The notes under the pieces: generated by a model
Told to the model about the DNA's origin: nothing
Seen by the model: only the letters and a program-made list of their open reading frames with translations
The model's database searches: none
Part shown: in pieces, positions 4,400 through 56,876 of the stretch
Position numbering within the stretch: position 1 is the stretch's first letter
Layout: every line of letters begins with the position of its first letter
Origin: Acanthochlamys bracteata
Taxonomy: Eukaryota > Streptophyta > Magnoliopsida > Pandanales > Velloziaceae
Assembly (NCBI GenBank): GCA_019914995.1
Contig: CM034145.1
Location: 3,038,001 to 3,102,000, forward strand
DNA length: 64,000 bases
Reading direction: 5' to 3'
Program-made: the position numbers and the translations under genes

Positions 4400-4784
4400 T
4401 AGTTAGAATATCTGCGATCGAAAAGAACGAAACAAAACCGATCGGCGGGGAAGAGGATCACCCGATTCAACGGAAGTAGATTCGGAAGGCGAGGGAGAAA
4501 TTGAGGAGAGCGGTGCGAATCTCGTCATTGTCACGCTGCCGATGCGATGGATTTCGCCGCTTCGAGCGAAAAGAGAACGGGAGAGATAGAACGATAGAGA
4601 AGAGAAAAAAAGAAAAAAAAAAAAACTATACAACACAAATCAGAAAAAAAGGTGACTCCGTGAGCGAGTAGTTAGGAGAAACGCGGCGTGAATACATCAT
4701 GACCGCTAGATCAAGAGATCCGACGGTCATGATTTGGCGTGCCCGGGTGCCCCTAATGCAACGAGGTGCCCATAACGCGATCCT
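4400..4784 (-). repeat. 5' terminal region of MULE-A with a 38-bp palindrome at 4,696-4,733
   Basis: This is the outer end of MULE-A, CpG-richer than its surroundings. It contains perfect 10-bp arms atcatgaccg (4,696-4,705) and cggtcatgat (4,724-4,733) separated by 18 bases. The layout matches the right end of MULE-B, where a like-placed palindrome sits at 41,424-41,461. The TA tract follows directly. Role as a terminal inverted repeat is inferred, since the partner end is outside the window. Confidence 0.6.
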
Positions 4785-4803
4785 ATATATATATATATAT
4801 ATA
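4784..4803. repeat. (TA)10 microsatellite at the outer border of MULE-A
   Basis: A pure TA run of about 20 bases lies exactly where the MULE-A end stops matching MULE-B. Comparable TA runs border MULE-B and MULE-C. Confidence 0.9.
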
Positions 4804-6659: not shown

Positions 6660-7110
6660 AGAAAAAATCAAAACAAAGGTATTAGATATTGGATATTATG
6701 CAGAACAAAAAGCATAAAGAAAGAAGACAAAAAACATAAAGCATTAGCATTAGCATTAACAGAGCAATCCAAAAAACAAAAAAAAAACGCATTAGGCAGA
6801 ACAGAAAGCATAATACAGAAAAAAAAATAGAAAGCATAGCAGAGAGTATTAGACAGAGAGCATGACAGAGAAAAAAAAACATGAAGCATATCAATCAAAC
6901 AGAAGTCAAAGAGCATAACAGAAAAAAAAAACAGGAAGCATAGCAGAGAGCGTTTGGCAAAGAGCATAATAGAGAAAAGAAATAGAAAGCGTAGCAGAGA
7001 GCATAACAGAGGAAAAAAAATATGAAGCATAACAATCAAGTATTAGACAAAGAGCATAATAGAGAAAAAAAACAGAAAGCATAACAAAGAAAAAATAACA
7101 GAAAGAAGAC
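6660..7110 (-). repeat. Degenerate 'GCATAACAGAGAG' repeat downstream of Harbinger ORF1
   Basis: About 450 bases are made of variants of 'agcataacagagagaaaa'. In the sense of the adjacent minus-strand ORF1 this is a pyrimidine-rich run of TGCTCTCTGTT-like units. It starts about 130 bases after the ORF1 stop. A very similar-sounding tract follows the MULE-C transposase at 45,840-46,480. The long open frames across this tract are artefacts of its composition. Confidence 0.75.
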
Positions 7111-32600: not shown

Positions 32601-34930
32601 GAGTGTTATCGGGGTGGTTTGAGGTTCTACAATTTAATAGACTTTTTTGATTTTGTTTTGACTTTATAGAATGGATTAAGGGTTTCGTATTTCAGATAGA
32701 TCTAGGATCATTAATTGACTTGATTCATATTATTTTGCAAATACATACACTTCTTAATATGTTGTTTCTAATATTTGTATGGGTCAATTTCAGTTGTTTG
32801 TTTAGATTAAGAATACAGTTACTGTTGATTTATTATTATTATTTTTTGGATAAAAGATTTCTAATTATGTCATCTTGTTTTCTACTTTAGATGAGCTAAC
32901 ATATCGTATGGCCTCACAAATCGTATGTCATAGTCGTTTCGATATCTAGATGCTATGGTGCTATATTGTAGTTCTACATTTTTTCTTCATCCAATGCTGT
33001 ACTTTGTCCATAAAGTAAATATTGAGATAGTCCACTTAATATGCAACCTAGACCTAAATTAGATCAGGGGAATAGGGACTCCATCTACATCTTTGAGGTT
33101 ATGCCAAATATATCTATGATATTATCTTTAAAAACCAGTACCTTTTCATGATTTATGCATTGTCATTTCGAAATGTTTGGTATTTTCATTCTAGTTGTGT
33201 CTTATATTTGACCATTTGCAGGTTTTCTAGACAGTTTAGACCTTCAAGTATGCACTACTTATTCCTCTGTGAAGCGGAAGTTCTCACAACAGTTCTCTTG
33301 TTTGTTTTTTTAATTTGAATTATGTTCAGCTAGCAAGAATCTGATATCTTCACTCTACTTGTGCTAGTAAAACTTAAATTGTTTGGCGGTGGTTATGGAA
33401 TATGATACAAAGTTTGTCTGACTTAATATGTCATCTAGGTAAAGTTAGACTAATTGTCAATCAAATTAATGCAACATGTAAGTGGTTTTGATGTAGTGTT
33501 CCTAAATTATTAACATTATTGTGGAAGATTACTGCACAGTATCATCATAGCGTAAAATTATCCTCTTTCATTAATTTCAGCAACTTCTATGGTGGTGCCT
33601 CTCTAAGAAATTACAACCAAAAGTCTTGATAGATCCACAAGGACCTCTCTCATAAGTCTTATGTGAATTTTTTCTATTCTATTTGGACAAAGTTGAGAGT
33701 TTGATAGCTGGTAGAGTTGTGAAACTCTAGCGAGATATTGATAGATTTGAGAACTTTGTACTATTGCCAAACTATGTATATTGGTTTAATTTGGTTCTTG
33801 TCGTGTACTTAGAGAGATCATTTAAGGAGTTTAGTTCTGATCATATATGTTCATCTTTGTCGGTAACATTTAAGTTTCTAAAATTTTCAAATGGCCGATG
33901 AAGTTGCAAGGTTCAATATGCTTTGAAGGAGAAGAGAGGAACCAAAGATGAGAAGTATAAGATTGAAATGCACAAGAATATAGAAGGAAACTACCATTTG
34001 AACCATATCCAGCAGTGTTTTGATTGAAGTTTATCTGTTTAGGAATGGTGTTGTAATGCAAATTTTTGAGAGACTTCTGAGTTGAATTATGTTCTAGGAA
34101 GTATAAAGTCAGTGATGATATTATGAATTTGAATTGTGATTCTCTTTACACGTGTCTTCAATGCCTTGAGTAATGAACATCTAGTGTTTTGTTCCAAACA
34201 ATGATGCTATTAATTTTTATCCATTTAGCTTGTTAGTGAGATATTTGATTTATTTTTAATTGTGCTACTTGTTTGTCATTGTCCTTAGATCTATTTCTCA
34301 TTCTTGCAAGAATAAACAACGAGATCCTTTATCTACTACAAGTGTTATTAAATTTTTTGCACGCATTTGTAAGCAGCATCTACGGTGCTCATTATAGACC
34401 CCTACAATCAACAACACTTGCCAGAAAATAGATCAAGACTTAGGACATCATTGTCTTACTTTTGACTTGTGCTATCCAGGAGCTTCAAGAGCACATGGTT
34501 CATTAATATTATTAACAAAATATTCACACATTCATTATTAGTAGTACAAAAAAATCAAGTTTAAAAAATAAATAATATATAAATTATTTATAAAACAGGA
34601 CTTATAAATTTCACATATATATTAACTATTACATGATTAAGGGTATTTTAGTCTTTCTATATTTTCTTTTAATTTTTATTTTTTTTTTTGTCGAACATTC
34701 TCTTCAGCTTTTTTTTTTTTAAAAAAAGATTAATTTTATCCAAACATATAACTCTATTTTAGAAAAAATTTACAACTATGTTTCAGAAAAAGTCAAAAAA
34801 ATAACTTTTAAAAAATATTGAACCTTTTCAGCTCTGCCAAACGTCTCCACAAAAGTGAGAAGAGAAAGGTGAAGTATTCCCCATTATTATTTATATTTGA
34901 TAATAATTTTATAAAGATAATAGATAGGAG
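32601..34930. other. No gene seen
   Basis: AT-rich intergenic DNA with no recognisable coding or element structure. The open frame at 33,870-34,061 (minus) has no family features. Confidence 0.5.
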
Positions 34931-35125
34931 TAAGGATGACAAAATAGATTAACGAAGCGGGTTCAGAATGACCTATATAATAATCATGTTAAAATTATTC
35001 AATCCTAACCCTAATTTATATATTTATATGGGTCAAAAATATCAACCATAATCTAATCTATTTAATAATTGGATTAAATTCGAGTCAACTCATTTAATAG
35101 TTAAAATTATTAAAAATAAAATAAG
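34931..35125 (+). mobile_element. MITE-like element copy A, left half
   Basis: From 'taaggatgacaaaatag' to 'aaaataaaataag' this matches, base pattern by base pattern, the first 200 bases of MITE copy B at 48,757. Both carry 'aaaattattcaatcctaa' and 'aattaaaattattaaaa'. The other half of the same copy resumes at 48,373, after the MULE-B/C block. Confidence 0.75.
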
Positions 35126-35147
35126 TATATATATATATATATATATA
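35126..35147. repeat. (TA)n tract, left border of the MULE-B/C block
   Basis: Eleven TA units immediately before the MULE-B end. A much longer TA run closes the block at 48,323-48,372. Confidence 0.9.
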
Positions 35148-35610
35148 CGGCACGGTTTGACGATCGTCGGTCACCAATTTATATAATTTTTTCTCCTTTC
35201 TTTGATTCCTGGGCCAATTTCACCTTTTTACAACCGATTGCCACTCTTAGCTCTGAACATCGTTGTTGCTGGCCAACGATCGTCATTCGGAGCCCAAAAA
35301 TCACGTCGTTCTTTTTCTCACCTTCTTGTAGTCGTTCTGGATTGATTCATTTCATCAATTTCGGCATCGACATGTTGCCGAGATAGCGGGATCCGGTAAG
35401 CTCGAATCTTTTTTTCTAATCAATTTCATTCTAAGTTGATCAATTTCATCAAGATTCTATTAACACGTATGTTTTTTCTAATTTTTCTTTTGTTTTTTTC
35501 GCTAGCCCACGCTGATAGTGACGCGGAGAAGAAGAATTTTGTAGGTATTTCAATATCAATTGCATGTCTTTGATCTAGATTTCATTTCACTTTCTGTTTG
35601 ATTTGAAATT
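35148..35610 (+). repeat. MULE-B left terminal inverted repeat
   Basis: Pairs with 40,740-41,245. Differences between the two arms are largely C/T or G/A changes, best seen in the 30 bases starting at 35,149. A donor-like ccg|gtaagc sits near 35,395, so the TIR may carry a transcribed leader. Confidence 0.85.
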
Positions 35611-36354
35611 TCTTTTTCCAATGTTTGATTTTAATTTTTGTTTTGTCTAATTTTTTTATCTATCGTTCCTCTGTTTTATGCAGATGAATAGATATGCTTA
35701 TGAGGATGGAGACGCGATGTGAAAAGTCTACTGTCCAGTGAAGTTGTCTACTGAAAAATTTGTGAATGTTGTGTTGTGAATGACTAGAAACAGAAATCTA
35801 AGCAACAACTTTGTGTTTTGTTATTGTGAATGTTGTAAAGACCTGAATGTTGTGAAGATTCGTATGAATGAAAAATTGTTGTCAATGGAAGTGTTCTGGA
35901 CAATGAATTGATGAAAGCTTGTGAATGATGAATGAATCATGAAGTGTTGTGGATAATGAATTATGAAAGCTTCTATAGAGTTGTATTCTGTTATTTTTGA
36001 ATATTATATATGGCTTCAATGCAAGGAAGCAAAAGATTAATCTTCCAGCAAGCAAAAATAAAATTGTAAAGACAAACAATACAGAGTAAAACAGAGAGCA
36101 AAAACAAAACTGAAAAAATTAAAAAAAAAACTAAATTAAAACATAGAACAACTCACTTTATAAAGGATAAATTTATCATTGACTACTAAATAAAACTAAT
36201 CTATTGTCATTAGCTTTCACATAATCTTTTTTTTCTCACTTCTAACATCTCATTTCGTTTGCACCTCTCTGTTTGTGCTTCCTCTCTTTTGCCAACTTCG
36301 CAGTCCACCATTGTTTCTAAAATTTTTTTCATACTCATCTCTTCTTCTACCAAA

Positions 36355-38882
36355 ATGGCTCAGCTTGACACAAGTATTTTTTTGCCATTCAAGAAATGAT
36401 CATGACCTTTCTCTTTCTCTCATTATGGTTTGAACGTTATTGCTTACATTTTTTTCTATGTTTAATTTCAGATTGCCAGCTTGGTTCTTTTTCTCCAACT
36501 CCAAATGAACGCAACGAGAGTGATAAGTCACCGTGCTTAGGAATGACATTTTAAACCCTTGATGTTTCGAAACAATTCTATATAAATTATGAGAAGCCGT
36601 GAGATTTAGTGTCGTTACCCGATCTACAAAAAAGATACGAGCTAATTCTGATAAAGTCACTCTTTGTCAAATGACCCATGTCGTTATAGAAATCACAGAA
36701 GTCGGGGTTTGCAAAAAACAAATAACGGATTCGAGAAAGAAACAAAAAAAAAGAGAAGCACAAGTACGGCGAAGTATGGATGCTCTGCAATAATGAGAGT
36801 GAAAAAGTAACTAAAAAGAATGTGGGAAGTTGTGGATTATGAATGTTAGCACAATCACGGCTTAGTTAGCCCTGCAAAATGAATGCGTATGCCTATTTGC
36901 AGAAATTTGCCTATTACAGTTAAGATATTAATTGACTCATTCCGATATGAAGGTATAGCCGTCACTAATGTTACAGATATACTTGACGGGCCACAGTATG
37001 GTTTTGATAATAGAGACAATTGCCATTGTGCCGGTCGAAGGAATACAAAAAACCTATAAGTAGCGATCCTACCGCATCCCTTAATTTCTTTAAAATGAGG
37101 AGTATAGAAAATCCGAGTGTTTTTTATACAATACAGATGGATGAAGAGTTAAGGGCAATAAATTTTCTTGGATAGACGGCAGATCACGCACACAATTTTA
37201 GTATTTTAGTGATGTCGTATTCTTTGACACCACCTACCGCACGAATGTGTTGGAGATGCCATTTGCACCATTTACTGGAACCATCACATGCAGTCAATCC
37301 AGTTTAGTTGTGCACTAACTTTAGATGAGGCAGAAGAATCCTTTCAGTGACTCTTTGAGACATGACTTGCAGCTACAGGCGGCGATGCTCTACGTTCAAA
37401 TATTACATATCAAGATAAAGCTATGACAGCATATGTTGTAAAGGTATTCTCAAATACACGATATAGATTTTATCTGTAGCATATTCTGAAAAAATTTGCA
37501 GAGAAACTTTCACATGTGTATTTCAAAAGTTCAAATTTCAAAAAAGACATTAAGAAGTGTATTACGGAAAGTTATAAACTTTTGAGACTCGATGGAAGAA
37601 ATTATTATGTACATATATATTGCAAGAGAATAAGTGGCTCCAAAATATATATAAGATTAGATAAAAATAGGCACATGTCTATCACTTGGATACTTTCTAT
37701 AACGGTATGAACAGTACCAAACGCTCTGAAGATATGAATGGTGTTTACAAAAAAGTTTTCAATCGAGAACAACACTTCGAGAATTTGTATTAATGAATGA
37801 AAAGTGTTTGAGTAAAATCATTGAGATAGAAAAGAAAGAAGATTATACGAGTGAACACTCGTGTCGTATTGTCAACGAAAACGTATTCGTCTTGCAAAGT
37901 GTAGCAAAACTATACACGAGAAATGTGTACGATAGATTCAAATAAGAATTTGAAACACTCAAGCTGAGTATGTGTTGCATGACGATTCAAAGGGTAGTGA
38001 CAGCTAAACGACTTATAAATACTTATATTTATAAGTTTTGAGTGTAAGGTGATCGGCGTGAGTGGAAGCTCAATCCAACAACAAGAAAAGGTAGCTGTGA
38101 GTGCAAACTTTTTGAGTTTATTAGGAATTCTTTGTCAACATTTTGTGAAGGTTTTTCTGAATTGGGATATAGAAATACCAAATCACTTTATTTTTTAGCG
38201 GTGGGAAAAGAAGGTAAACAAATATAGAGCTAATTATGATGGTGGATCTATAATTGGGCATGATAATACTAATTACTGAGAACTACACACCTACAGATGG
38301 TTTGGAACCAATTGGTTTATGAGATTGCTGATACCGACGAGGGCTATCAAATTTTAATAAAAGCACTAGAAGAAACAGCACTACACTTAGAGAAGTGATG
38401 AAGACTAATGGCCATGTTAGCATTCCAACACTAGAAAAAACAACCCCAGTTGATGCATCTCAAATCTTACTATTGAATCCTCATATCTTACAAACTAAGG
38501 AAAAAAAAAAAGAAAGAACTATTCATAAGAGTAATAGTAGAATAAAAGAAGGCTTGAAGAAAGCCACTACAAAAGCCAAAACAAAAACAGTTAGAAAATG
38601 CGCATAACGTAACAAATCTGGTGTTCAACACGACAAACGAGATTGTCCTGAAAATTTAATTAGAAAAAATAAGGCAAAAGTAAAATTATAGCTTAGCTTT
38701 GATTAGTAGAATACTTTCTTTTTGGATTCAAATTTTTCTCTTAACATTTATCATCACTATTAAAATTAATAGTTTTTTGAAGTGATGATGCTGGGGACAA
38801 AAGTAGAAATGATGGTGAATGCAATGATAATAGTGAAGAAGAAGACAATGATGATAAGGAGCTATCTATTCATTTAGAGTAA
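36355..38882 (+). pseudogene. FAR1-type MULE transposase of MULE-B, heavily broken
   Basis: Collinear with the MULE-A gene. It has a first exon starting M-A-Q and a short intron, and a FAR1-type domain at about 36,470-36,800 (SDKSPCLGMTF). The DDE-domain block VFFDTTYRTNVLEMPF is near 37,210, the SWIM region near 38,100, the CCHC knuckle (NKSGVQHDKRDCPEN) near 38,620, and an acidic last exon ends in TAA at 38,880. It is interrupted by many stops and frame changes, more than MULE-A. It retains the CAG codon (near 37,300) that has become TAG in MULE-A. Not able to encode an active transposase. Confidence 0.85.
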
Positions 38883-39049
38883 GATGATGAATTTTTTTGG
38901 CATTTTTGGATGTTGTATTCAATCTTTTTAAGTTGCATTGTATAGAAAGCAATTTATTATATGTGACTGTTATGTTTGTATTACTTTTTCCTGTTTGCAT
39001 TTCTAATATTTATCTCTATTTATCCAAAACAAATAATGACAAAAATAAT

Positions 39050-39760
39050 GAAATAAGCTGGAATAAAATAGTGAAAAAGAAAGTAAAAAAAACAGTGAAA
39101 AAAAAAGTGAAATAAAGAAAATGAATAAAAAACAGTAAAAAAGAAGGTGAAAAAACATAAATTAAAAAAAGTGAAATAAAGCAAAAAAATTGAAAAAAGA
39201 AGGTGAAAAATAATTTTAAAAAAAGTGAAATAAAAAAGTGAAAAAAGAAAATAAAAAACAAACAGTAAAAGAAAGGTGAAAAAAATAAATTAAAAAAGTG
39301 AAATAGAAAGGTGAGAAAAAAGGGTGAAAAAAGAAAGTAAAAAATAGTGGAAAAAAGAAAATAAAAAGAAACAGAAAAAAGTACAAAAAATAAATTTAAA
39401 AAGAAAGTGAAATAGAAAAAATGAAAAAAAAAAGTGAAATAAAGAAAAAGTGACATAAAAAAGAAAAATAATTCAAAAAGAACAGTGAAACAGAAAAAGT
39501 GAAAAAATAAAGTGATTTAAAGTGAAATAGTGAAAAAAGTGAAAAAAAATTTAAAAAAACAAAGTGAAATAGAAAAAGTGAAAAAAACTGAAAAAAAGGG
39601 TGAAAAAAGAAGTGAAATAAAGAAAAAGAAACAGAAAAAATGAAAAAATAATTCAAAAATATAGCGAAATAGAAATGTGGGAAAAAATTGTGAAAAAAAA
39701 TTAAAAAAAAGAGTGAAATAAAAGAAGTGGAAAAAAATAGAAAAAAATTATTTTATAAAG
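39050..39760 (+). repeat. Degenerate GTGAAAAA-type tract downstream of the MULE-B transposase
   Basis: Some 700 bases of purine-only variants of 'gtgaaaaaaagaaag', placed about 170 bases after the transposase stop. Same sense and same position relative to the gene as the tract at 1-360 in MULE-A. The long minus-strand open frames over it (39,016-39,656) are phenylalanine-rich composition artefacts. Confidence 0.85.
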
Positions 39761-39779
39761 ATAGAGAGTGTTCACACAT

Positions 39780-40150
39780 AAGCATTTACTTGAATATAAC
39801 TCATATTTTCATTCACTAGACATAGATCACTTGAATCACATTCACACTTAGAGCATTCACTAGCAAAACTCACACTTGCATTCACTTAAACATAGCTCCA
39901 CCTTGAGCATTACATTACAAATACATATATCACAATGAGCATTCACACTTACATTCACTTGCACAACTCACACTTACATTCACTTAAACATAGCTCCACC
40001 TTGATACATTCACAAATACATAGCTCGCAATGAGCATTCACACTTACATTCACTTGCATAGCTCACACTTGCATTCACTTAAATATAACTTCACTTGAGC
40101 ATTACATTTATAACTACATAACTTATAATGAGCATTCACCTAAACAAAAT
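39780..40150. repeat. Tandem repeat, 95-98 bp period, about 3.5 copies
   Basis: The phrase 'ttcacttaaacatagctcc' starts at 39,881, then 39,979, then (diverged) 40,074, each followed by 'gagcatt' and 'cacactt(g/a)cattcact'. It lies inside MULE-B between the purine tract and the right TIR. Confidence 0.85.
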
Positions 40151-40739
40151 ATTCACTGGTGCATTCAAATGTTTCTCTTTCAAAGATTCACTCAAACAGA
40201 AGTTTGAGCATTCAATATCCATTCACCTAGATAACATTTACATTTCATTCCATTTCAAACAATTTCATACATAATTCTAAACACCTGAGGAGAATATTTA
40301 CATTCCATTCTATTACAATGTACTATTTATATTCCATTTACTGCACCATTCAATTAACATCAACAACTTGTCAACTTCTACAAATCATACAGAATTTTCA
40401 CTAGATAGTTTCTAGTCATTAACATCATACAAAACATTCAATATATTCCCTATATTACAAAACTAACACATCACTACATTCAATTGATGCATATGATCGA
40501 TGAAAGAGCTCGATATCAATTAGCTCACTGATCAGTAAGCTTCAACAATATGCATTCATATAATATAAAATAAGCATCAAGAAGAAGAATCAGCATTCTT
40601 CAGTAGGCACTTCCTTCCTGTCTCCATCTTCACCAGTCTTCATTGGTATCCTCCATTCATCTGCAGAAAACAGAGGGAGAATAAAACCAAAAAACAAATT
40701 CTACTGGAACTGAAATCATGCAGAATATTAAATTGAAAT

Positions 40740-41512
40740 TTAAATAAAACTAGCTGCACTTGGAATTAAAATTACGTGAATTGAAATTAAAATCTAGATC
40801 AAATATGTAAAATTGACATTGAACTACCTGCAAAAATTTTCTTCTCCATATCACTGTCAGCACCAGGCTAGCAAAAAAGGAAAAGAAAGAAAATTAGAAA
40901 AAAAAATGTACGTGTTAGTAGAATTTTGATGAAATTGATCAATTGAGAACGAAATTGATTAGAAAAAAATATTGAACCTTACCGAATCCTGTCGTCTTAG
41001 CAACACGCTCGATGCCGGAATTGATAAAATAGATCAATCCAGAATGACTAGAAGAAGGTGAGGAAAAAAACGACGCGATTTTTAGGCTCTAAATGACGAT
41101 CGTCGGCCGGCAACGGCAATCTTTTGCTACGATGTTCAGAGCTAGGACTAGCGATCGGTTGCAGGAGAGGTGCAATTGGCCCAAGAATCAAAGAAAGGAG
41201 GAAAAAATTACGCAAATTGGTGGCTGGCGATTATTAAACTGCGCCAAGATCGATCATGAGGCGAACGCTCGGGCAACGAGAAGGAGAGCGAGCGAACGGG
41301 AGGGAGAAGGAAGGAGAGAAGATGAAAAAAAGAAAAAAATAAATTAACTTGGTCTGGCTGAATGGCATGCGAAATAACGAGTATGCCCTTCGACTAGCTC
41401 CTTACTGCACTTCCCTCCATGTGAATCACAACCATCAAAATTTGATCCGACGGTTGTGATTCGAAATACACAATGTGCACTAGTAGTGCATACTGTACAC
41501 ATAACTGACCCG
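40740..41512 (-). repeat. MULE-B right terminal inverted repeat and outer end
   Basis: The inner part (40,740-41,245) pairs with the left TIR. The outer part (41,246-41,512) is not matched on the left but resembles the end of MULE-A at 4,560-4,784, including the A-rich stretch and the palindrome at 41,424-41,461 with perfect 10-bp arms aatcacaacc and ggttgtgatt. Confidence 0.8.
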
Positions 41513-41523
41513 TATATATATAT
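41513..41523. repeat. Short TA tract separating MULE-B from MULE-C
   Basis: About five TA units are all that lie between the two elements, so they abut in one microsatellite. Confidence 0.85.
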
Positions 41524-42625
41524 GCACATCTCATTCCTACAGGCACATGATTTACTGTAGGCACATGGGGCTGAATTGACGGTTGTGATGCAGGCACTTA
41601 ATCCGCAGACGGCTGTGATGCGCTGGAGCGTTTTTAACCTAAATGTGCTACAACCAAAGGCTGTGATGCAGGTACTTAATCCGTAAACGGCTGTGATTCG
41701 CTCGAGCGATTTTAACCTAGATGTCCTGCAGCGGTGCTGCCTCACAATCATTCTCAATCTTTTTTTCCTCCACTCCATAACAGTGTCTTCTACTCCGCCT
41801 CCAACCTTACGAAATCTAGCCGAAAGCGCTCACTGCCGACTCAATTTCGCAATAGAGTCTCGATTTCAACTTCTGATCAAGATCGGAGGCTCGATTTCAC
41901 GATTCCGACCGAAATCGAACTCTCCACGGCTCGATTTCACGATTTCGGTCTCCAATTCAGCTATTGAAAATGAATCCGGCCCGATTTCGTCTTCGACGTC
42001 CTCTCCGGTTCGATTTTGCCATTCCAGCTGAAATTGAGTTCCCCGCGGCTCGATTTCCGGCTCGGTTTTGCAATTTCGATCCCTATTCGGCTGTTGATGA
42101 TGATTCCAGCCGGACCCGATTTCGTCTTCGGCTTCCACTCCGCCTCGATTCGTGTTTTCGTTTCCCGATTTATTTAAATTTTCGCCGATTTATTTTAATT
42201 TTTGGTGATTTGTTTTGATTTTCACTGATATGTTTTGATTTTATTCACGCTAATTTGTTTTATGATGTTTTGAATTTGTTTTGTGGTGTGTTAGACTCAT
42301 TTTATGATATATTGGATTTGTTTCACGGTGTATTGAATTTGTTTCATGTTGTATTGAATTTGTTTAACGGTGTATTAATTTACAATGTATTGATTTTTTA
42401 TTTATGTGTAGTGGATAGTTTGGGATATTGAATGTAAATTACTAAAACTGAAATGTTTGGATATATTGATGAGGCAATGATGAGGCTGGAAAAAATAATT
42501 TTCCTAAATCTACTCTGACCCTTTAAGATAGCAAGGCAGTAAGGATGGCAACTGGCAAAGTCAGGTGGCAACCACTGCAGTTGTGATTAGAGAAGGCAGT
42601 GCTCGGTTGGAGAGAACAACATCGA
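41524..42625 (+). repeat. MULE-C left terminal inverted repeat (about 1.1 kb)
   Basis: Contains a 78-bp tandem duplication near its outer end ('ggcacttaatccg' at 41,593 and 'ggtacttaatccg' at 41,671), each unit with the motif acgg(c/t)tgtgat. Further in are repeated 'ctcgatttc' and 'cgatttcg' phrases, CpG-rich compared with the AT-rich surroundings. The short open frames here are TIR sequence, not genes. Confidence 0.88.
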
Positions 42626-43466
42626 ACTGTTTTCGTATAGTCATAATATAGGTACTATCTTTGAATCTCAGTGCTTACAGTAAATCATGTACTTTGAGCC
42701 TCCCTCTACATTTTTATCTCTATTAGTCGGTTGCTGTTTTGGTGTTGATGAAAGAATGCTCGAAAGCTAGCACCTGTTATGATATGTAACTGGATACTGG
42801 ATGTGTAACCATTTTATTGTAAAATATAATTCGATGCTGGAAATGTAACTTCAATGTAGCAGATGCTGTAATTCTCATGCGTACTATGTAATCAATATAA
42901 TTTTTCTCTTGTTACTGTAATTCCTTCTACTCTGAAATAAAATTTTTTTAGATTAAAATTTACTTTCAAATACATTATAATCAGTAGTTATTGATGAAAA
43001 TTATTGAAAAAATTTTGCTTTTAATGTTACCAAATAATTCAAACGAATGATTATAAATATTAAAAATTCTTAACTTAATTGATTATAATTAAAACAAAAA
43101 AGAAAACACAACAACAAACTAAATTGATTGTATTTAAGATAGCGTTTGATTTCAACAGATAACATCTGCTATCTGTCTTTAATTTCTTCACACGACGGCA
43201 TACAGCTTTTAAATTCAAGTCATAACATCTGCCATTAAATGCTTGCTACAGTTATCACCAACTTCCTTTCTCCTGCGCTCATCCTATTCTTCTCCAGCGT
43301 TCTGTTCTGCGTCTCTCTTCCTGTGCCATTTTATTTCTGCTTCGTCTTCTTTCTTACACTACTTTAAATTTCAACAATACCAAAACTTTTTCTCTATTCT
43401 TTTTATTCTCCTGTTAGACAAAACAAATATTCAGCATTTGTGCTAAGCTATTCAGCATTCTTCTCT

Positions 43467-45816
43467 ATGGCTCAAGACACGGCAAATTTTGAACAAGGTG
43501 TCTTAACTGATACATTTATTGATAAAGTTTTTTTGTTGTAATATTGTGATACTGAATTTAAAACAAGCATAATAAGTGTCATAACAGAACCCAAAAAAAC
43601 TTTGCAGCTATTTTTAATTTTCTTCATGTTGAAAGTGAAATAGAGGATGAAAAATGATTAAGAACAAAATTGTTTTACAAAAATACTTCTTTATTATGCT
43701 ATACCTTTCAAAATTTTAATGCAATTCTTTTTTTAGATATAGTTCTTCCAAATACAGATAGCAGAGACCGAGTGCTCTGTTGTATCATTTCAGAACATGA
43801 TAGTAGAGAAGGAAAAGTCATCTTATATAGATATGATTTTTCCTAACTCTTAAAGTTGCAAAAAAACTTTATATATATTATGAAAGAGCAACTAGATTTA
43901 GTACGATTACTCGAAGTACCGATAAAAAAAGGTTACGATGAAGTCACCTCTTGTCTAATTACTTGCTAACGTTTTGGTGCACATAGAGACCATACCAAGA
44001 AACAAACAGATGAGAATTTTCATAATGAAGCTATTAACTAGAAGATAAGTACATCAACAGTGAAATGCGGATGTCCTATAAGGATAAAATGACAAAGCAA
44101 CCAACTGGATCGTGGAAGGTGATTCAGTATATTAGTGAGCATAATCATAATTTTTTCAGTCCAACGAAAAGGATACGCATGCCGTTTCTAAGCATATGCC
44201 CGCTGCAGCAAAGATGTTGATCGACTCATTTCATGATGAGGGCATACCCGTCAATAAGTTATAGATATTCTCGATGGAGCACAGATTGGTTTTGATGATA
44301 GAAATTGTTGGAATCATTTGGGATCATCGAAGGAGTACTAAAAACCTATCCAAGGGGATGCAACTGCAGCACTTAATTTTTTCAAGAAGAAGAGTATTAA
44401 AGATCCAATTTTTTTTTATGCAATATAGATGGATAGTAAAGCAAGAGTAATAAATTTTTTTGGGTGAATGGTCGGTCTCGTCTACAGTTTCAGTATTTTG
44501 GTGATGTATGTTCTTTGACACAACATACCGTACGAACACGTATGACATGTCATTTACCGCATTTACTGGAGTGAATTATCATATGCAGTCAATTTCATTT
44601 GGTTGTGCTTTTGAAATGAGATGGAATGAATTTATATGTAAGTACAATTTAGAAGAGAATGAATGGCTTCAAAGGATATACAACATTCGAAAAAAGTGAG
44701 CTCCAGTTTATCATTTGGATACATTTTATGCTGGCATGAATACTACAAGACGATCTGAATGTATGAACTCTGTTTACAATAATTTTTTTCATCCAACAAT
44801 AACTCTTTGCGAGTGTGTAGTGAAGAACGACAAATGTTTAGCCAAAATTGTTGAAAATAAAAAGAAAGAGGATTATATTAGCAAACATTTTGATCGCATT
44901 GTCGATGGTCATGCTTTTCTTTTGAAGAATGCAGCAAATGTGTATACTAGAAATGTATACGACAGATTCAGAAAGGAATTTGAGAAAGTTCAAGCAAAGT
45001 ATGTTTTATATCACGATGAAAAGGATAGTGATGGCTATACAACTTTCAGTTACAAGTCTCGAGTGCCTGGTGACGATCATTCGTGGAGAGTTAAATTCAA
45101 CCATACCACTAACGAATGCTACTATGAATGCAAACTTTTTGAGTTTGTTGGTATTCTTTGTGGACATCTTATGAAAGTTTTTCTATCCCGTGATATAGAA
45201 ATACTTGATAATCTCATTCTTAAGAGGTGGATGAAACGGGCTAACAAGTATAGAGCTGAGTATGATGGTGGAGTAGTACGAGGCCATGAGCATTCTGACC
45301 TATTGAGAACTACCCAATTTTTAAAGATTTTCACTCAATTGGCCTATTAAGCTGGTGAAGCAGAGAACACTTTCTAATTGATGTTGAAAACATTACAAAA
45401 GTTGTCGCTACAGATCAATGAAGTAAAGAAGATTAATAAGAGCTCCCGAATCCATTCATGCACTGCTACAGAGAGCACACAAGTTAATGCAACTCAAGTT
45501 CTACTTTTAAATCCAAATATTTTGCAGACTAAGAGAAAAAAAGGAGAAGGAAAAGTTCTACCGGTAATAGTAGAACAAAAGACGGTTTAGAGAAATCCGT
45601 TGCAAGAGCCAAAGCAAAGATATGAAGAAGATGTGCTTGCTATAATAAGATCGGAGTTAAACATGACAAATAAAACTGTTCTGAAAATCTAAATAGAAAG
45701 AAGAAGATAGCTATTAATAAAGATATGACACCAAAGATAGTGATGATACTGAATCCATAAACACAATAGATCTCAGCAACAGTTATGATGAACTATCAAT
45801 AGGTTATGGCTTTTAA
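43467..45816 (+). pseudogene. FAR1-type MULE transposase of MULE-C, internally deleted
   Basis: Starts ATGGCTCAAGACAC, almost identical to the MULE-A first exon, with the same early intron. A FAR1-type domain lies around 43,780-44,150 (KCGCPI near 44,060), the DDE block FFDTTYRTNTYDM near 44,515, and the third catalytic motif TTRRSECMNSVYNNFF near 44,760. A SWIM region CKLFEFVGILCGHLMKVF is near 45,150 and a CCHC knuckle near 45,640. Between SISFGCA and FEMRWNEF about 100 residues are missing compared with MULE-A, taking away the block with the second catalytic aspartate (TDQD). Other stops and frame changes occur. It could only be mobilised in trans. Confidence 0.88.
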
Positions 45817-45839
45817 GATGAAATTTGGTGAAATATATG

Positions 45840-46480
45840 ATTTTTGTATAACTGTAAATATGTATTTTATTCAAGTTTACTCTCTATTTTAGATGAAATT
45901 GTATTTTTGTTCAATCTTGCTCTCTGTTCAAGCTTGCTTTCTATGACTTTTGAGATGAAATTGCTCTCTGTATGCTCAAGCATTGCTCTCTCTTTATTGT
46001 ATATTGCTCTCTATTTTGGTCAAGCTTGCTCTCTGTTAGTTCTATTTTGCTCTCTGTTTGCTGTATCTTAGTCTCTATTTGTTGTATTTTGCTCTCTATT
46101 TTCGAAAAGCTTGCTCTTTGTTTGCCACTCAGTTGCTTCCTATTTTCTTGCTGTGTAATTGCTTTGCTCTCTGTTTTCGGAAAGCTTGCTCTCTGTTTGC
46201 TTTACACTGCTCTCTATTTGCTTGCAGTGTAATTGCTCTCTGTTTAATCAAGCTTGCGTGCTATTTTTCTATAATTGCTTACTATATAAATTTTTGTATG
46301 TTGTATAATTGCTTACTATATAATGACTTATACTGTATAATGCTCTCTATGTATGTTATAATAATTGTATACAACTTGCTATATTATTTATTACTGTATA
46401 CTAATTACTGTATTAGTGACTACTATAGTGCCGTATACTACTTGCTTTTTAATAATTGCTTACTACATTTCCAGCGACCA
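45840..46480 (+). repeat. Degenerate TTGCTCTCTGTTT repeat downstream of the MULE-C transposase
   Basis: About 640 bases of variants of 'ttgctctctgttt' and, further on, 'attgcttactatat'. It begins about 30 bases after the transposase stop. In MULE-A and MULE-B the same place carries GTGAAAAA-type repeats instead, while the Harbinger element at 6,660-7,110 has a unit much like this one. Confidence 0.85.
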
Positions 46481-46796
46481 AAAAAACCTAATACACTAAA
46501 TTTTGTCTCAAGCATCTCGTTACAAAGCTCAAACAGAGTCACTTTTACAGCATTTGGTTACATTTTATAAGAGAGTTACATTTTCAGAATATCCATACAA
46601 CAGATTTATATTGCCAGTAACTGATTACATGTCACAAAAGAGAAATACATTTTTTCGCATCTGGTTACAATTCACAATACAGAGTTACATAGCCAAACAT
46701 TTGGTTATCTCACTACAACAAAGAGAGGAAGAGAGGAGGGAGGTTCAAAGATAATGATTTTAATCAATCACTAAGATTCGAAGAAATGTTTGAATC

Positions 46797-48320
46797 AACC
46801 AATGCTCTCTACCTCTCTCAATACCTTCTGTAATCACGGCTGCAGTGGTTGCCACTGTTATTTGACAGTGGCCGTCCTTACTGCCTAGCCAGTGTACACA
46901 AAAGGTAGTGCGGATTGAGGAAGTACAGAAAATAAATTTGCAGCCTCATCATTGCCTCATCAGTATTTCCAGCAACTAATAATATTTCACAATAGAGAGT
47001 TAATATTTCTAACATTCTTTCAAAAATAAGAGCAATTTGCAAACAAACAAAGAGCAATTTTGAACCCTCATCATTGCCTCATTTATATTTTCAAACGGCT
47101 GTGATGCAAGAAACCAACATACCTTTCCAGTTAAGGCAACCATGAATTCAACAAATGATTCCGGCCAAACCATCAAAGATCTATAAAACCAATACACCGT
47201 AAATCAAAGTCAATACACCATAAATCAAAACCAATACCGATAAAATAAATTCAATACACCATAAAATAAATCAGCGAAATCCGAACAAATCGCAAAATCA
47301 AAATAAATCAGAGAAATTCAAACAAATCATCCAAAGCGAAAGTTTCAATAAATTCAAGAAAATTAAAACAAAGTCATGCCGGAATTGAAGCCAAAAACGA
47401 AGCCGAGCCGGAATCTTGATCACAAGCCGAAATAGAGTCTATACTTAGATCGAGCGCATCGGGGACGTATTTACTTTAAAAACGCTCTAGCGCATCATAA
47501 ACGTTCGCTGATTAAGTGTCTGCATCAAAGCCGCTGATTCAACACCTTGTGCTTACAGTAAATCATGTTCCTTCGAGGGACGAGATCGGACCGAATTCAT
47601 TCTCAACAAACGAATCTGGGAAAGGAATCGCGAATTGAGCCGGAGCGGAAGCAGGAGACGAAATCGGGTCCATCCGAAATCATCATCAGCAGTTGAATAA
47701 GACCAGAATCGCGAAACCGAGCCGAAAATCGAACTGCGGAGAACTCGATTTCAGTCGGAATGGCGAAATCGAGCCGGAGAGGACGCCGGAGACGAATCCG
47801 GTCCGATTCATTCTCAATAGCCGAATGGGAGATCCGAATCGCGAAATCGAGTCCAATCGGGATCATCATCAAAGGTCGAATAGGGATCGAAATTGAGCAG
47901 AAAATCGAACTAGGGAGAACTCGATTTCGACCGGAATCGCAAAATCGAGCCGCGAAGAGCTCGATCTCAGTCGGAATCGCGAGCTCGAGCCGGAGTTGAA
48001 GCCAGAGACAAAATCGAGCCTCCGATATTGACCAGAAGCCGAAATCGTGACTCTGTTGGAAAATCGAGCCAGCTGTGAGCGCTTCCGACTTGATTTCGCA
48101 CGGTTGGGGGCAGAGCGGAAGACGTCGCTGTGGAGTGGAGGAAAAAAAGATTGAGAACGGCTGTGAGGTAGCACACGCTGCAGGACATCTAGGTTAAAGA
48201 CGCTCCAGCGAATCACAGCCATCCTTAGATTAAGTGCCTGCATCACAACCGTCGATTCATCACCATGTGCCTATAGTAAATCATGTGCCTGTAGAGATGG
48301 GATGTGCCTACATCCCATTC

Positions 48321-48322
<2 letters not shown>
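46797..48322 (-). repeat. MULE-C right terminal inverted repeat, enlarged by an internal duplication
   Basis: Reverse complement of the left TIR but about 400 bases longer. The region 47,440-47,580 repeats, in the same orientation, sequence of the outer end near 48,160-48,290: both have 'gattaagtg(t/c)ctgcatca' and 'agtaaatcatgt'. The stretch 47,600-48,000 also repeats phrases such as 'gcgaaatcgagccgga'. Confidence 0.85.

Positions 48323-48372
<50 letters not shown>
48323..48372. repeat. (TA)n tract of about 50 bases, right border of the MULE-B/C block
   Basis: A pure TA run. Together with the run at 35,126-35,147 it marks the split point of MITE copy A. Confidence 0.95.
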
Positions 48373-48375
<3 letters not shown>

Positions 48376-48625
48376 GAAAAAATTTAATGTCATTTTTTTA
48401 AATAGTTTTTAATAACTAGACAATATATGCTTTGCAAATAATTATAAAGATTAAACGATCAATTTCAGATCAACCCAAACTGAATCTGGTTAAGTTTTAA
48501 TGTCAAACTTGGGTCGATCTAAATTGACCCAAATCTAGCTAAAGTCAAACTTAAACCTGACTTATTCGTATTGATTTCGGATTGATTTTACGGGTCGGGT
48601 TATATATAGCTATTTCTAAATAGGA
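48373..48625 (+). mobile_element. MITE-like element copy A, right half
   Basis: Matches the second half of copy B: 'aattataaagattaaacgatcaatttc' pairs with 'aattatatgggttaaacgggtcaattt', and both end with 'cgggtcgggt'. It continues the left half found at 34,931-35,125. Confidence 0.75.
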
Positions 48626-48756
48626 GAGGAGGATACTGGAACTGCTTCCCTTCCATCCCTTATACGCGCCAAACTTCTTAACCTGTCGGATAGGGTTAGC
48701 AATTTTCGATCCGACCCGAAAATTCGACCTAAAAAAGTCGAGTTTGGATCAAGCTA

Positions 48757-49267
48757 GGGGTGGCAATTCGGATTCCTGAATCAGTTCTGGATCGACTCAT
48801 ATAATAATCGGGTCAAAATTATTCAATCCTAATCCAACCCATTTATTTATATAGTTTAAAATTGTCCACCCTAAACCAACCTATTTATAACCGATTCAAC
48901 TCGGATCGACCCATTTCATAATTAAAATTATTAAAATAAAAATTATAAATATTAATTTTTAATTATAATATATAAAAATTATTTTATATGATATATTTAA
49001 AAAAATATTAACTTTGACAAAATTTATAAATTAAATAAATTAAATTTATATATATAGACAAATTAAATTCAATTTTTTTGTTATTATTTTCTAATTATTA
49101 AATAATATATATTATATAAATAATTATATGGGTTAAACGGGTCAATTTCTGATCAACTCGACCCGAACCTATTTAAAATTCTCGGATCATTTTCAGATCG
49201 ACCCAAAATCGACTAAGGCTTGACCTGAACCCTACCTTTTCGGGTCGGGTCGAAATTTGCCACTCCA
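48757..49267 (+). mobile_element. MITE-like element copy B (about 510 bp)
   Basis: Begins aggggtggcaatt and ends aaatttgccactcc, giving short inverted ends (GGGGTGGCAA-type). The interior is very AT-rich, flanked by 'gggtcgggt'/'gatcgaccc' phrases. No coding capacity. The end sequence recalls hAT-type MITEs, but an 8-bp target duplication was not found, so the superfamily is uncertain. Confidence 0.7.
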
Positions 49268-49752
49268 AATTAAGCCTTAATCGGATTCGGGTCAATTTCG
49301 GATCGACACCCGAAAATGACCCAACAAAGTTAAATAGATTCGGATCGGGTTCGAATTGATCCAAAATTGATCCATTTAATCCGTATAACTATTTATATAA
49401 TATATATTATTTAATAATTAAAAAATAATAGCAAAAAATTTGAATTTAATTTGTATATATATATTTCTTAACTTATCTTAATTTAACTAAATTTTACTTA
49501 ATTTATAAATTTTATCAAAATTAATAATTTTCTTTTTAGATATATTATAATTAATAATTTATATATATTATTATTAAAATTATTATTTATAATTTTTATT
49601 TTAATAATTTTAATTATTAAATAGATCAATTTAAATTTGATCTAATTATTACATAAATTAAATTAAAATTAATAATTTTAATTTATATAAATAAATAAAT
49701 TAAATTAGAATTAAATAATTTTGATTTAGATTAAAAATTCGAATTGCCACCG
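49268..49752 (-). mobile_element. MITE-like element copy C, inverted relative to copy B
   Basis: Reads as the reverse complement of copy B: it starts with 'tcggattcgggtcaatttcggatcg', has the same AT-rich core, and ends 'aattcgaattgccacc'. B and C touch end to end, and C lies directly upstream of the GC-rich leader at 49,760. Confidence 0.7.
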
Positions 49753-51815: not shown

Positions 51816-53691
51816 AAGAAGAGTGGTCTATGGCTATCATTATTTTGTATACAATGAGTAGTTTTTATTTCTTAGCCATTCATGTAAAATATGTTTTCAA
51901 TTTTTAGAAACTGCTTGTGAAACTTGGATAAGAAATCATAGTTTTTGTTTAATTTAATGTATAGAAATATGTGATGTGCTCAAAATATATGTATAATTTC
52001 ACGTAATTCTGTATCATATATGCTTGATTTTATATAATAAAAATTGATTAAAATGAACCTTATCTTTTTGCTTTCTTTATTTTCAGTTTTCGTTGCGATT
52101 TGAGTGTTTTTTTTTTTAAAACATAACGTTTTAGTGGAATTTTGGAAAATGACTAGTTGGTTTGAAAGTCAAGATATTAAAGTTGGTTCATAATTTTTTT
52201 CAAAATGTTTTGCACGGCCAATTGGTACAGATTCATGAATGATGTTGACTAACAGTGCATACTTCAATCATGTGTACAGTTTCTAGAATTGAGTGCAGTT
52301 GAAGGTATTTTTATTTTTACATGACATGTGTGATATATGATTGGAACGATAAAACATAAACCTGGAATTCTCGTATGTTTTCAAATTTTTGGTAATAGAA
52401 GAGGAGGCTTATAAGAGTCAATTTCTACTGTTCTTGTTGTTGCTAGAACAGAGAGGAATACATAGAGGAGTAAGGAGCAAAGAAAAAAAATGGCAGTTTA
52501 CTTAACATCATTCTTTTTTCAGGGTTGTATTATTCTATCTTTTATATTTCTCTTTGTGTTGATAGATTGAAAATTATGAAATAAATTTCTTTTTGTTGGG
52601 ACTATAATGTAGCATAATTATGATAATTTATTTCTTAATTCTGTGCCATTCGGATTTTATAATTTCTTATTAAGTATTCATTACAGTGCTTAATTGTTAC
52701 AAGTATCTCACCAATATTTAATAAAACTGAAATTCATAATGAGATCAAGATGTGATGTATTGATTAATCTATATAGTGAATGCTATGAAATGCATGAGAG
52801 ACAGGAATGTATTTTCATGATTCGTGCAGTTAATGTATAATGCCACAAAATTTAATGAGATTTTATATATGATAATTCACATAGAGATATAGAAAATTAT
52901 TGAATGAAAATATTTATGGTATAGTTTGAGAAAATGTATTAAAGGAATTAAAGTTTTTCAACTTTCAGTAAAGACATAATCATGGTCTTACGAAATTAAA
53001 TTAGAATAGTTATGATAAAAGCAAATGCCCTAGCACTTGTCATTGAAATATCACAAGTTTTAGCTTTAGCTTTAACATTCACTCTACTTAAACAATTGTT
53101 CAAATAATTATATTATTAATTATTTTCGGTACTTAATAAGTTAACCAATTTTTTTGGGAACGATATTTCTCTTATCACTGTATTGCTTATGTGACTCATA
53201 CACTTGTGATAACGAAATATGTACTTGACATATCTACATGAGTGATTATTTTAGATAATATACTCATAGCAGCTGCTTCTTTTTAATTTTGAAAAGTTTA
53301 ATAATGCAAAAACTATATACTCTCATATATATAAAGTGTCAGTTATGTGTGTATACCTTGGTTACGGGTATAGTTTCTTTTTCCCTATGTATGCAACTTA
53401 ATGGCTATTTTCTTTTTCGCCTGGCCTAGATAATGGTTGCTTAAAGCAGAGTAGTAAGCCTTATTAGATACTTTATTGGGAAGCCTGACTATACGAGGCA
53501 TTATGTACTACTTTGATAACCGTATGATGTGTCAATAGATGATAGAGATTGAGTAAATATTTTTCATAATAAAAATTTCATATTGCACATGATTTATAGT
53601 ATTAGTCACGGCTTATGGACATAAAAAATACCAAATATCTCTTTTAGCCCCAAAAAAAAAACAATAAAAGAATTCGAACTGTCTAGCTCAA
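51816..53691. other. No gene seen
   Basis: AT-rich intergenic DNA with no coding motif or clear element structure. Confidence 0.5.
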
Positions 53692-54209
53692 TGTCATAGT
53701 ATATTTTATTAGGCATTCCTACTCACCCTTTTTGTTATAGTTATATGCATTATGTTGGTTATTTTAGAATTGTGTCACTCTAAAATAGCCTAGATACTTT
53801 TATGCTATAGATATTATGTAAGGCATATAATGTATTTAGATTTGTGTATTAAGATATTTTGGAAGTTAGAAATAATTTGTAAGTATATTTTTGGAGAACC
53901 CCCTGAAAAAGCATTCTCTATCATTCAATCAAAATCATCTCTACCGTTCATTGAGCAGGTGGAAAGGCCATATAAATAGGGAGAAGAACTCTCATTTGTA
54001 AACCATAAAAAAGCATTGTAATTATAACTTTTGTAAGTGTTATAAGGAGTTCTTTTCAAGATTCCTTTAACTGTTGTTCTCGCTTTCCGACTTTATCTCT
54101 AAGAACTATCAGTTTTTAGCTATTTTTAGTAGCTACATTAGAGAAAAGACATAGTTGCAAGAGGTGTAATTAAGTGTTGCATGCGAGCAAAAGTAAAAGT
54201 TTAGGCTCG
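53692..54209 (+). repeat. 5' LTR of the gag-type element
   Basis: Starts tgtcatag and ends just before the primer site. Contains a TATA-like 'tataaatagg' near 53,972. Pairs with 56,353-56,876. Confidence 0.7.
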
Positions 54210-56352
54210 TGATAATTGGTATCAATGCTAAGGTTTTCGCTAAGGAAAATGGCAACTAGCTAGGACGTCAAATCTATGAGGGAAGGAACACCGAAAGCAG
54301 AGCTCTCGAGGGTAGCAAGAGATGCAAGGAGAATTCAGGGGACTTAATCACGAACGTGATTACAAGGCTCACCTAAAGCTTGCGGTGCCAGATCAGATCA
54401 ACCAATTCAAGGAAATAGGCCAAAGCATCGAGAAGCTCAAGAGATGAGAAGAAGAGCTTCATGGAGATGCAATGCTCCTTTAGTACGGTGGCTAATGCAT
54501 TCTCTAACCAAGATAAAACGCCACTACGAACTATCTTTAGTGACATTAATGCTTTTAGGAGAAAGATTGTACCTTTAGAGAAGTGACCGAAGGATTGTCC
54601 TCTGAGTTAAGTGATGTCAAAGGAGGCTGGACCCATTGTAAGATGGCGGTCGCACATGCGGGAGTTGCAGGTATGCCGTCAACCTATCTTCTTCAAGGGT
54701 GGATGTTCCAAATATAAGGCATACAAATGGACGCGATATGTGAAGGAGATTGACAACTCCCTATGAAACTTAGAGCAATTCTTCAGAAGTAACGACATTA
54801 CGGAAGATGCTAATAAGACCGACCACGCCATTATTTATCTGTAGGATATTAGGATGATATGGTGGAGAAAGAGCCATAGCGAGATTGAGAGGAGCAATTG
54901 CACTATTATCAATTGAGATGAGTTCAAGAAGGAGCTCAATATATAATTCTATTCACAAAATACCAAGAAAGAAGTCAAAGCAAAGTTTCGGTGATTAAGC
55001 CAACGTGGCAGCATCAGCACTACGTGAATGAGTTTCCTAAGTTGATCTTGAAAATCCACGATTTAGCAAAAAAAGAGTCCCTCTTTTACCTTCATGGATG
55101 GATTGTCAATGTAGATTGGATTGGAGTTTTAATGAAATAGACCTCAAAACCTTAATTCTACTATTGTTATAATCGAATTTTTAATCAAGCTTAAGAAGCC
55201 CAAAAAGAAGAAGCCTCTACAGTACATCGAAGGCAAGTGGGGGATAGCCACCAATCAAATGTGGCAAAATATGACCTTGTAAAGTCCAAGTGATGATTTA
55301 ATAAATATCATTGAAGTAGTCAAGAAAAACGAAAAAATATAAGTTACTTTAAAATGCTTCATTTGCGATGAACCACATAGGGTAACATATTATCCAAAAT
55401 AGAGCAAGCACTCAGTTTTATCGAGATAATGGACAAACCATAATAATAGCACGAGGAAATAAGGGTGGGCTCATTACAACTCCTTAATGTCGTCAATGCC
55501 TAAAAGTAAATTTCGAACACGAGAAGAAGAGCTATTATACGAATGATCAAATTTGGCGAACAAGAGGTTTGTGCTTTGGTGGACAAGAGAGTTACCCACA
55601 ACTTGCTTGTGAAGAAGTAGGCTAAGAAACTTGACATCAAGTATGAAGGGGTAAGGGTAGATTAAGGTAGTTAACTTTGAGCCGATGTTAGTTGTGAGTG
55701 TTATTTGTGGGGCAAAATCTTTCATAATTACATGGTTCAGTCTTATAGACTTTTTCATTATGCTTATGGACGATTTTTTCTATAGTTCTTCAATTGAGTA
55801 CATCACTAAAAAGCCATGCGGCTATGCTTAACTGCTTTGCCAACACCATATGTGTCATAGATGAGGAGATACATGCATGATACATTTGTCACGAGAATCA
55901 AATCTCCAAACCAAGATTATTTTAGCTCACATAAAGACCATACATATCGCATTTGCCAATACTGTATTTATCATGAAGGAGTGAAATACGTGCATAATAT
56001 CTTTGTCGTGAGATTAAATCTCTAAGCGATACTATTCTAGCCATGAGATCCTTAAAGAGAGAAAAAGCCACTCGACAAGGGTCCACGTAGAGGGTGCATC
56101 CTTAAGAGCTCTCACTAGTATCACTATGTCACATCAAAACGAGTTGTGGAGGAGATTGGTGCACCAAGATATCCCAATATGTGGTACTAATCCTCATTAC
56201 TCGGAGTTCTTGGTAAATGAAAATGTCAGCATAATAGTGAGGCAAGTTGGGAGCATGATCTCTACTTGTAGCAATTTCATTAGAAGATCAAGGAGTTTCG
56301 CTACACCTCTACTCAACCATGATGAAAACATTGCAAAATAGGTGGGGGAGAA

Positions 56353-56876
56353 TGTTATGCTATACTTGATTTGGCATTCAACCCCGCCCTTATTTGTCTT
56401 TGTTATATACTTTATGCAGGTTATTTTAAAATTATATGAGATAATTTAAATATCCAAATATATACAAATGATATTTATATAATCTATTTAAAGTATCTAA
56501 ATTAACGTGTCAAGAATTTTGAAAGCTAGAGATATTTTATAAAGATATTTTCGTATAACTCTTTATCGAAACGTACTCCACCATCTAATAAAGCCATCTT
56601 CATCGTCCATTGAGAAAGCGAAAAGGCTATAAATAGAGGGCAAATAATGCTCACTTGTAAACCATCGAGAAGTATTAAAGTTAAAGCTTTAACAAGCCTG
56701 GTAAGATTTTTTTTATTCCAAGCTTTGTTTTAGTGTTCTTTTCACTTTACTTCTTTCCTTCCAAATCCAAAAGAAAAACCTTAGCTATCTTTGATGAATG
56801 CTTTGAAGAAACTACTAACTTAGCTGTAATAGGTGTAACTAAATGGCACATTAGTAAAGATAAAAGTTTAGACCCA
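56353..56876 (+). repeat. 3' LTR of the gag-type element
   Basis: Starts tgttatgc after the polypurine tract, contains 'tataaataga' near 56,629 and ends near gaccca. The open frame at 56,733-56,933 is LTR sequence. Confidence 0.7.

Follow-up and report, generated by a model that had tools for sequence, protein, structure and literature searches.

The window (the whole stretch of DNA analysed, 64,000 bases with 33.2% G+C) contains remains of three families of Mutator-like elements (MULEs), which have mostly unlike ends, share one transposase lineage and all end at TA repeats. Two of them, MULE-B and MULE-C, lie between the halves of a split MITE, and the order on the site is half-MITE, (TA)11, MULE-B, (TA)5, MULE-C, (TA)25, half-MITE (Table 1). 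MULE-B and MULE-C form a non-nested array with a microsatellite joint, neither element interrupting the other, and the predicted gap of about five TA units between them was found as a (TA)5 spacer. MULE-A is represented by a transposase region and one visible end. The transposons suggest plant nuclear DNA, and the sequence evidence presented here was drawn entirely from the window.

Table 1. Positions in the window of the array, its TA tracts, and the related MULE and MITE sequences
Feature	Position	Strand	Basis
MULE-A transposase region (MULE, SWIM, weak FAR1 similarity; stop within MULE domain)	414-2866	-	Pfam and alignment
(TA)10 tract at visible MULE-A end	4784-4803	.	tract scan
Left 8-bp target site duplication of MITE copy A, GATAGGAG	34923-34930	.	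7/8 against right octamer
MITE copy A, left part, tip TAAGGATGACAA	34931-35125	+	141/189 identical to copy B
(TA)11 tract, left junction	35126-35147	.	tract scan
MULE-B, 6,365 bp	35148-41512	+	TIR homology and span
MULE-B, degenerate MULE-type transposase region	36437-38881	+	71% DNA identity to MULE-A region; several stops
MULE-B, outer right end without left partner, with hairpin 41,423-41,462	41246-41512	+	hairpin ends 50 bp from tract
(TA)5 spacer between MULE-B and MULE-C, 10 bp	41513-41522	.	tract scan
MULE-C, 6,800 bp, TIR about 650 bp in blocks	41523-48322	+	TIR homology and span
MULE-C, degenerate transposase region	43798-45705	+	273-bp catalytic stretch absent at 44,609/44,610
(TA)25 tract, right junction	48323-48372	.	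tract scan
MITE copy A, right part	48373-48618	+	149/210 identical to copy B (over 48,373-48,617)
Right 8-bp target site duplication of MITE copy A, AATAGGAG	48619-48626	.	7/8 against left octamer
MITE copy B, sister site without MULE	48755-49267	+	alignments
(TA)5 run in MITE copy B, homologous to right junction of array	49047-49056	.	tract scan and alignment
(TA)5 run in third, inverted MITE copy, homologous position	49454-49463	.	tract scan and alignment

Element ends and transposase remains

Both members of the array have long TIRs. In MULE-B (35,149-35,592 and 40,779-41,245) the TIRs are identical at 370 of 443 positions over about 444 bp, and in MULE-C the blocks within 41,518-42,170 and 47,613-48,313 share 80-86% identity. 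The left end of MULE-B is 267 bp shorter than the right end, where the right side runs on alone to the tract. The hairpin in this outer stretch has a z of -5.2, and 0 of 200 shuffles fold as well; a hairpin in the visible end of MULE-A also ends 50 bp from its tract (z -2.1; 9 of 200 shuffles fold as well). It is well but not conclusively supported that the right end of MULE-B is the true end and the left end is truncated. The two tips of MULE-C differ by 14 bp in length, the right one being the longer; with its hairpin, this right tip could be a snap-back addition or the result of loss from the left end. The hairpin at this tip (48,297-48,322) is small, with a 9-bp stem. The outer stretch of MULE-B was also considered as a separate small element and rejected, there being no TA tract at 41,246; the longest exact inverted repeat within it, of 10 bp, forms the stem of the internal hairpin. 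An exact scan of bacterial and archaeal contigs with the MULE-C TIR pattern gave 0 matches, as expected for eukaryotic DNA.

The MULE transposase domain was recognized by Pfam in MULE-A (PF10551, E 1.6e-20, with SWIM at E 5.7e-05) and in a fragment of MULE-C (PF10551, E 1.3e-07, profile positions 2-39 of 99 only). The 273 bp missing from MULE-C are the counterpart of MULE-A positions 1,716-1,988, so the MULE domain of MULE-C is cut. Pfam found no family in the four ORF pieces of MULE-B, which is assigned as a MULE by homology to MULE-A only, and none in the 216-aa ORF of MULE-C. Similarity to FAR1 was seen in MULE-A (23.6 bits, E 8.5e-05) and MULE-B (15.4 bits, E 0.031), both under the Pfam cut-off of 28.1 bits, and none was found by Pfam in the MULE-C piece. 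Successive Pfam scans gave families in two of seven ORFs, one of eight, and two of three pieces (FAR1, sub-threshold), and 0 of 10 ORFs elsewhere in the window had a family.

The transposase regions are related at the DNA level, with 71% identity between MULE-A and MULE-B, 71-73% between MULE-A and MULE-C, and 67.5-72.5% between MULE-B and MULE-C, in line with the original prediction that both array members carry the same transposase family. The prediction had also described two complete-looking units. Two elements with long TIRs are present, but MULE-B lacks 267 bp of its left end, and completeness does not hold for the coding regions: those of MULE-A, MULE-B and MULE-C are all broken, with stops in most tblastn pieces of MULE-B and 273 catalytic bp absent from MULE-C. 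Judged from these sequences, none of the three would yield a working transposase as it stands.

Other repeats were observed in the window. Downstream of the transposase region of MULE-B is an A-rich degenerate short-period repeat (39,039-39,750) with a spacing that is often about 12. A direct repeat at 6,695-7,102 is offset by about 96 bp and has 70% identity, and there is another of about 405 bp with 67% identity, its copies (53,690-54,094 and 56,351-56,756) lying 2.7 kb apart.

The split MITE and its sister copies

The two halves of MITE copy A are a single insertion with an 8-bp target site duplication. As predicted, they align as one copy with copy B, and the duplication provides independent evidence: the flanking octamers GATAGGAG and AATAGGAG have seven of eight letters the same (a chance of 7.8e-4 from base composition, for one register). 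By this 8-bp duplication (7/8) copy A is a hAT-like MITE, and its tip TAGGGGTGGCAA presumably has a hAT-like appearance as well. The pairwise and three-way MITE alignments were made without a shuffled control, and BLAST E-values serve instead: 1.3e-24 for the left half (34,961-35,134) and 3.2e-13 for the right half (48,332-48,493), the latter for a match that takes in 41 bp of the TA tract.

With its halves joined, copy A is identical in the three-way alignment to copy B at 299 of 425 positions and to the third copy at 290 of 410, and copy B matches the third copy at 383 of 481. The third copy is inverted, and copy B sits inside it, near its end. The flanks of copy B (GATCAAGC and AATTAAGC) are alike at six of eight letters (chance 7.5e-3, one register). 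Copy B and the inverted third copy make up a palindrome of about 0.9 kb (48,691-49,751).

The right half of copy A restarts directly after the tract, at the place where both sister copies have a five-unit TA run. The presence of a TA run at the homologous place in two sister copies supports the view that such a run was already there when the MULEs inserted. The left part of copy A has no counterpart to about 100 bp of the core (48,947-49,046 in copy B). The MITE was predicted to be cut at a (TA)n tract, and its halves do lie around such tracts, but the cut is not clean. MAFFT pairs the left tract of copy A with a different, more upstream TA-rich stretch of the sister copies, so the position of the left junction is not fixed and could also lie there. 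The missing core was either lost during or after insertion or absent from copy A beforehand.

TA tracts and the origin of the array

Seven perfect TA tracts of at least five units were found by a scan of the window. MULE ends adjoin four of these seven, including all three with at least 10 units. The remaining three (at 20,028, 49,047 and 49,454) adjoin no MULE, and those at 49,047 and 49,454 are inside MITE copies. Counted by elements, all five visible MULE ends adjoin a TA tract (4/4 ends of MULE-B and MULE-C and 1/1 of MULE-A), and three of the five are fixed independently by TIR homology. MULE-A had been predicted to end at a TA run, which holds for the one end within the window, an end placed at its (TA)10 tract; no inverted match to it, marking a second end, is present within the 64 kb.

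In a window with 67% A+T, MULE ends might lie near TA tracts by chance. The three TIR-defined ends are 2, 0 and 10 bp from a tract, and only 0.39% of random positions (frequency 0.0039) lie within 10 bp of a tract of at least five units, which makes chance proximity extremely improbable, even though the three ends are not fully independent because MULE-B and MULE-C share the site. The right ends of MULE-A and MULE-B, which have no TIR partner and were placed at the tract, were kept out of this test. A first-order expectation for ten-unit tracts (9e-7) ignores slippage and was given no weight.

The two MULEs were predicted to have different end sequences, and gapped local alignment agrees that the ends are mostly unlike: seven of eight cross-element end pairs do not score above the best of 200 shuffles, and the eighth, between the right ends of MULE-B and MULE-C, scores one point above. 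Four of the eight pairs exceed the 95th percentile of shuffles, so the ends may have a faint ancestry in common. An end-anchored ungapped comparison of the right ends of MULE-A and MULE-B gave 39 matches over 92 positions, reached by 2 of 2000 letter shuffles; this was the best of six end pairs tried, and the other five were reached by 122 to 1978 of 2000 shuffles. The gapped local score of the same pair (26, against a maximum of 28 in 200 shuffles) is not significant, so kinship of these two ends depends on hairpin position and the end-anchored match.

The best reading of the site is that two Mutator-like elements of the microsatellite-targeted SaTar/MuTAnT kind inserted into TA runs and formed a short array without nesting (probability about 0.82). 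A hAT-like MITE, classed by its 8-bp duplication, would have inserted first, with a short run of TA units within its AT-rich core. Into this run a transposase of FAR1/MULE type would then have delivered a first MULE, after which another MULE, whose ends differ, would have entered TA sequence at the edge of the first. Later, the TA tracts would have changed in length, the left side would have lost both MITE and MULE sequence, and both elements would have decayed. We infer that the transposase chose the TA run and that the loss on the left came later. At 10 bp the spacer matches a MULE target duplication in length and probably is one; a 9-10 bp duplication is not recognisable within pure TA, where any TA stretch flanking MULE-B or MULE-C would match as a duplication of 8-11 bp. 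Insertion targeted to TA, with a second element landing beside the first, was the original prediction, and it is the best reading of a site that has tracts at every junction and TA runs in the sister MITEs. Of the predicted order of events, the greater age of the MITE stands, but the order of MULE-B and MULE-C is unreadable.

Other histories would account for parts of the same evidence. The TA tracts could be mainly a consequence of insertion, the MULEs having entered AT-rich DNA with little or no TA repeat, whose flanks were later turned into long TA tracts by slippage or repair synthesis. The runs in the sister MITEs are just five units long, whereas those at the edges of the array have 11 and 25, and short TA empty sites in maize are reported to grow after insertion (PMC5907723); against this, the run at the homologous place in the sister copies makes it probable that some TA repeat was there earlier, and we consider this account doubtful. 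The left tract is bordered by losses on either side, of about 100 bp from the MITE core and of 267 bp from MULE-B, and such two-sided losses are not given by plain cut and paste. They may be later deletions, like those in SaTar arrays and in about a quarter of MuTAnTs, or they may reflect another insertion pathway, for example one with circular intermediates. In the circular model proposed for SaTar, microsatellite filler sits at the joined ends of the intermediates, and their homologous recombination would take the place of choice by the transposase. The losses and the lack of a readable duplication, both of which fit cut and paste poorly, speak for it, but the middle spacer has the length of a MULE duplication and no circular form is known at this site. 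Its authors call the model speculative (PMC5907723), and we regard it as improbable here. It is much less probable still that MULE-B and MULE-C moved as one composite unit or arose by local duplication. They adjoin in the same orientation and have related transposase regions, but the two have separate TIR pairs and mostly dissimilar ends, and their transposase identity is no higher than that of either to MULE-A.

Targeted insertion remains the preferred reading. A more speculative step, which we consider possible but unlikely, starts from the three families of one lineage that have mostly unlike ends and yet all stop at TA: targeting might be inherited with the transposase lineage independently of TIR sequence, and coding elements of different families might then build arrays on their own, with no ancillary pathway of the host. 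The way in which microsatellite-targeted MULEs locate TA repeats is described as an open question (PMC8227079; PMC5907723).

Comparison with published TA-associated MULEs

Arrays or clusters of this type have been reported in guayule, rice, sorghum, citrus and pineapple (PMC5907723, PMC8449440, PMC8227079 and PMC4486113 as a group), and TA-flanked MULEs or MULE-derived MITEs in Medicago and carrot (PMC4486113, PMC8227079, PMC5907723 and PMC8449440 as a group). Micron in rice and TAFT in maize also target TA microsatellites, as proposed here (per PMC5907723 and PMC4486113). The original prediction considered coding MULEs in TA, twice at one site, to be more unusual. This is not supported, given the precedents of MuTAnT, SaTar and pineapple: coding MULEs that target TA and non-nested arrays joined by TA are both published, and the claim of novelty therefore fails. 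The site is an ordinary, readable example of a pattern already described in several plants. Among the titles and abstracts surveyed, none reported a pair of adjacent MULEs with transposase regions at a single TA site; coding elements are listed in the supplements of the SaTar paper.

In Medicago truncatula, AutoMuTAnT is a 4.9-kb coding MULE between long TA stretches (PMC4486113). It resembles the elements here as a coding MULE with TA flanks, and the partial lack of a TIR, seen in MULE-B, also affects about a quarter of MuTAnT copies. The AutoMuTAnT transposase is Jittery-like with a complete ORF, whereas the regions here have MULE/SWIM and weak FAR1 similarity and are broken, and here two elements occupy one site, unlike AutoMuTAnT (PMC4486113). 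In pineapple, 4,024 clusters of short elements (Ac-mMITE) were described (PMC8449440), which are alike in adjacent, non-nested insertion with joints of almost pure TA. Ac-mMITEs differ in being short MITEs for which the authors found no coding partner (PMC8449440).

The closest description is that of SaTar, AgS-MULE and ArS-MULE in guayule and rice, non-nested MULE arrays with TA microsatellite joints and defective coding MULEs among them (PMC5907723). As here, these are microsatellite MULEs, often at (TA)n, that lie end to end without nesting (PMC5907723). SaTar arrays also resemble this site in that element ends are sometimes deleted and defective coding MULEs occur within or beside the arrays (PMC5907723). 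Compared by description, SaTar families are short and non-coding, whereas both members here are 6-7 kb long with transposase remains (PMC5907723). By itself the site is one more example of these known arrays; the combination of an old, split MITE with empty sites in two sister copies and with a pair of MULEs that share a transposase lineage but have unlike ends makes it a useful test case for targeting by the transposase itself.
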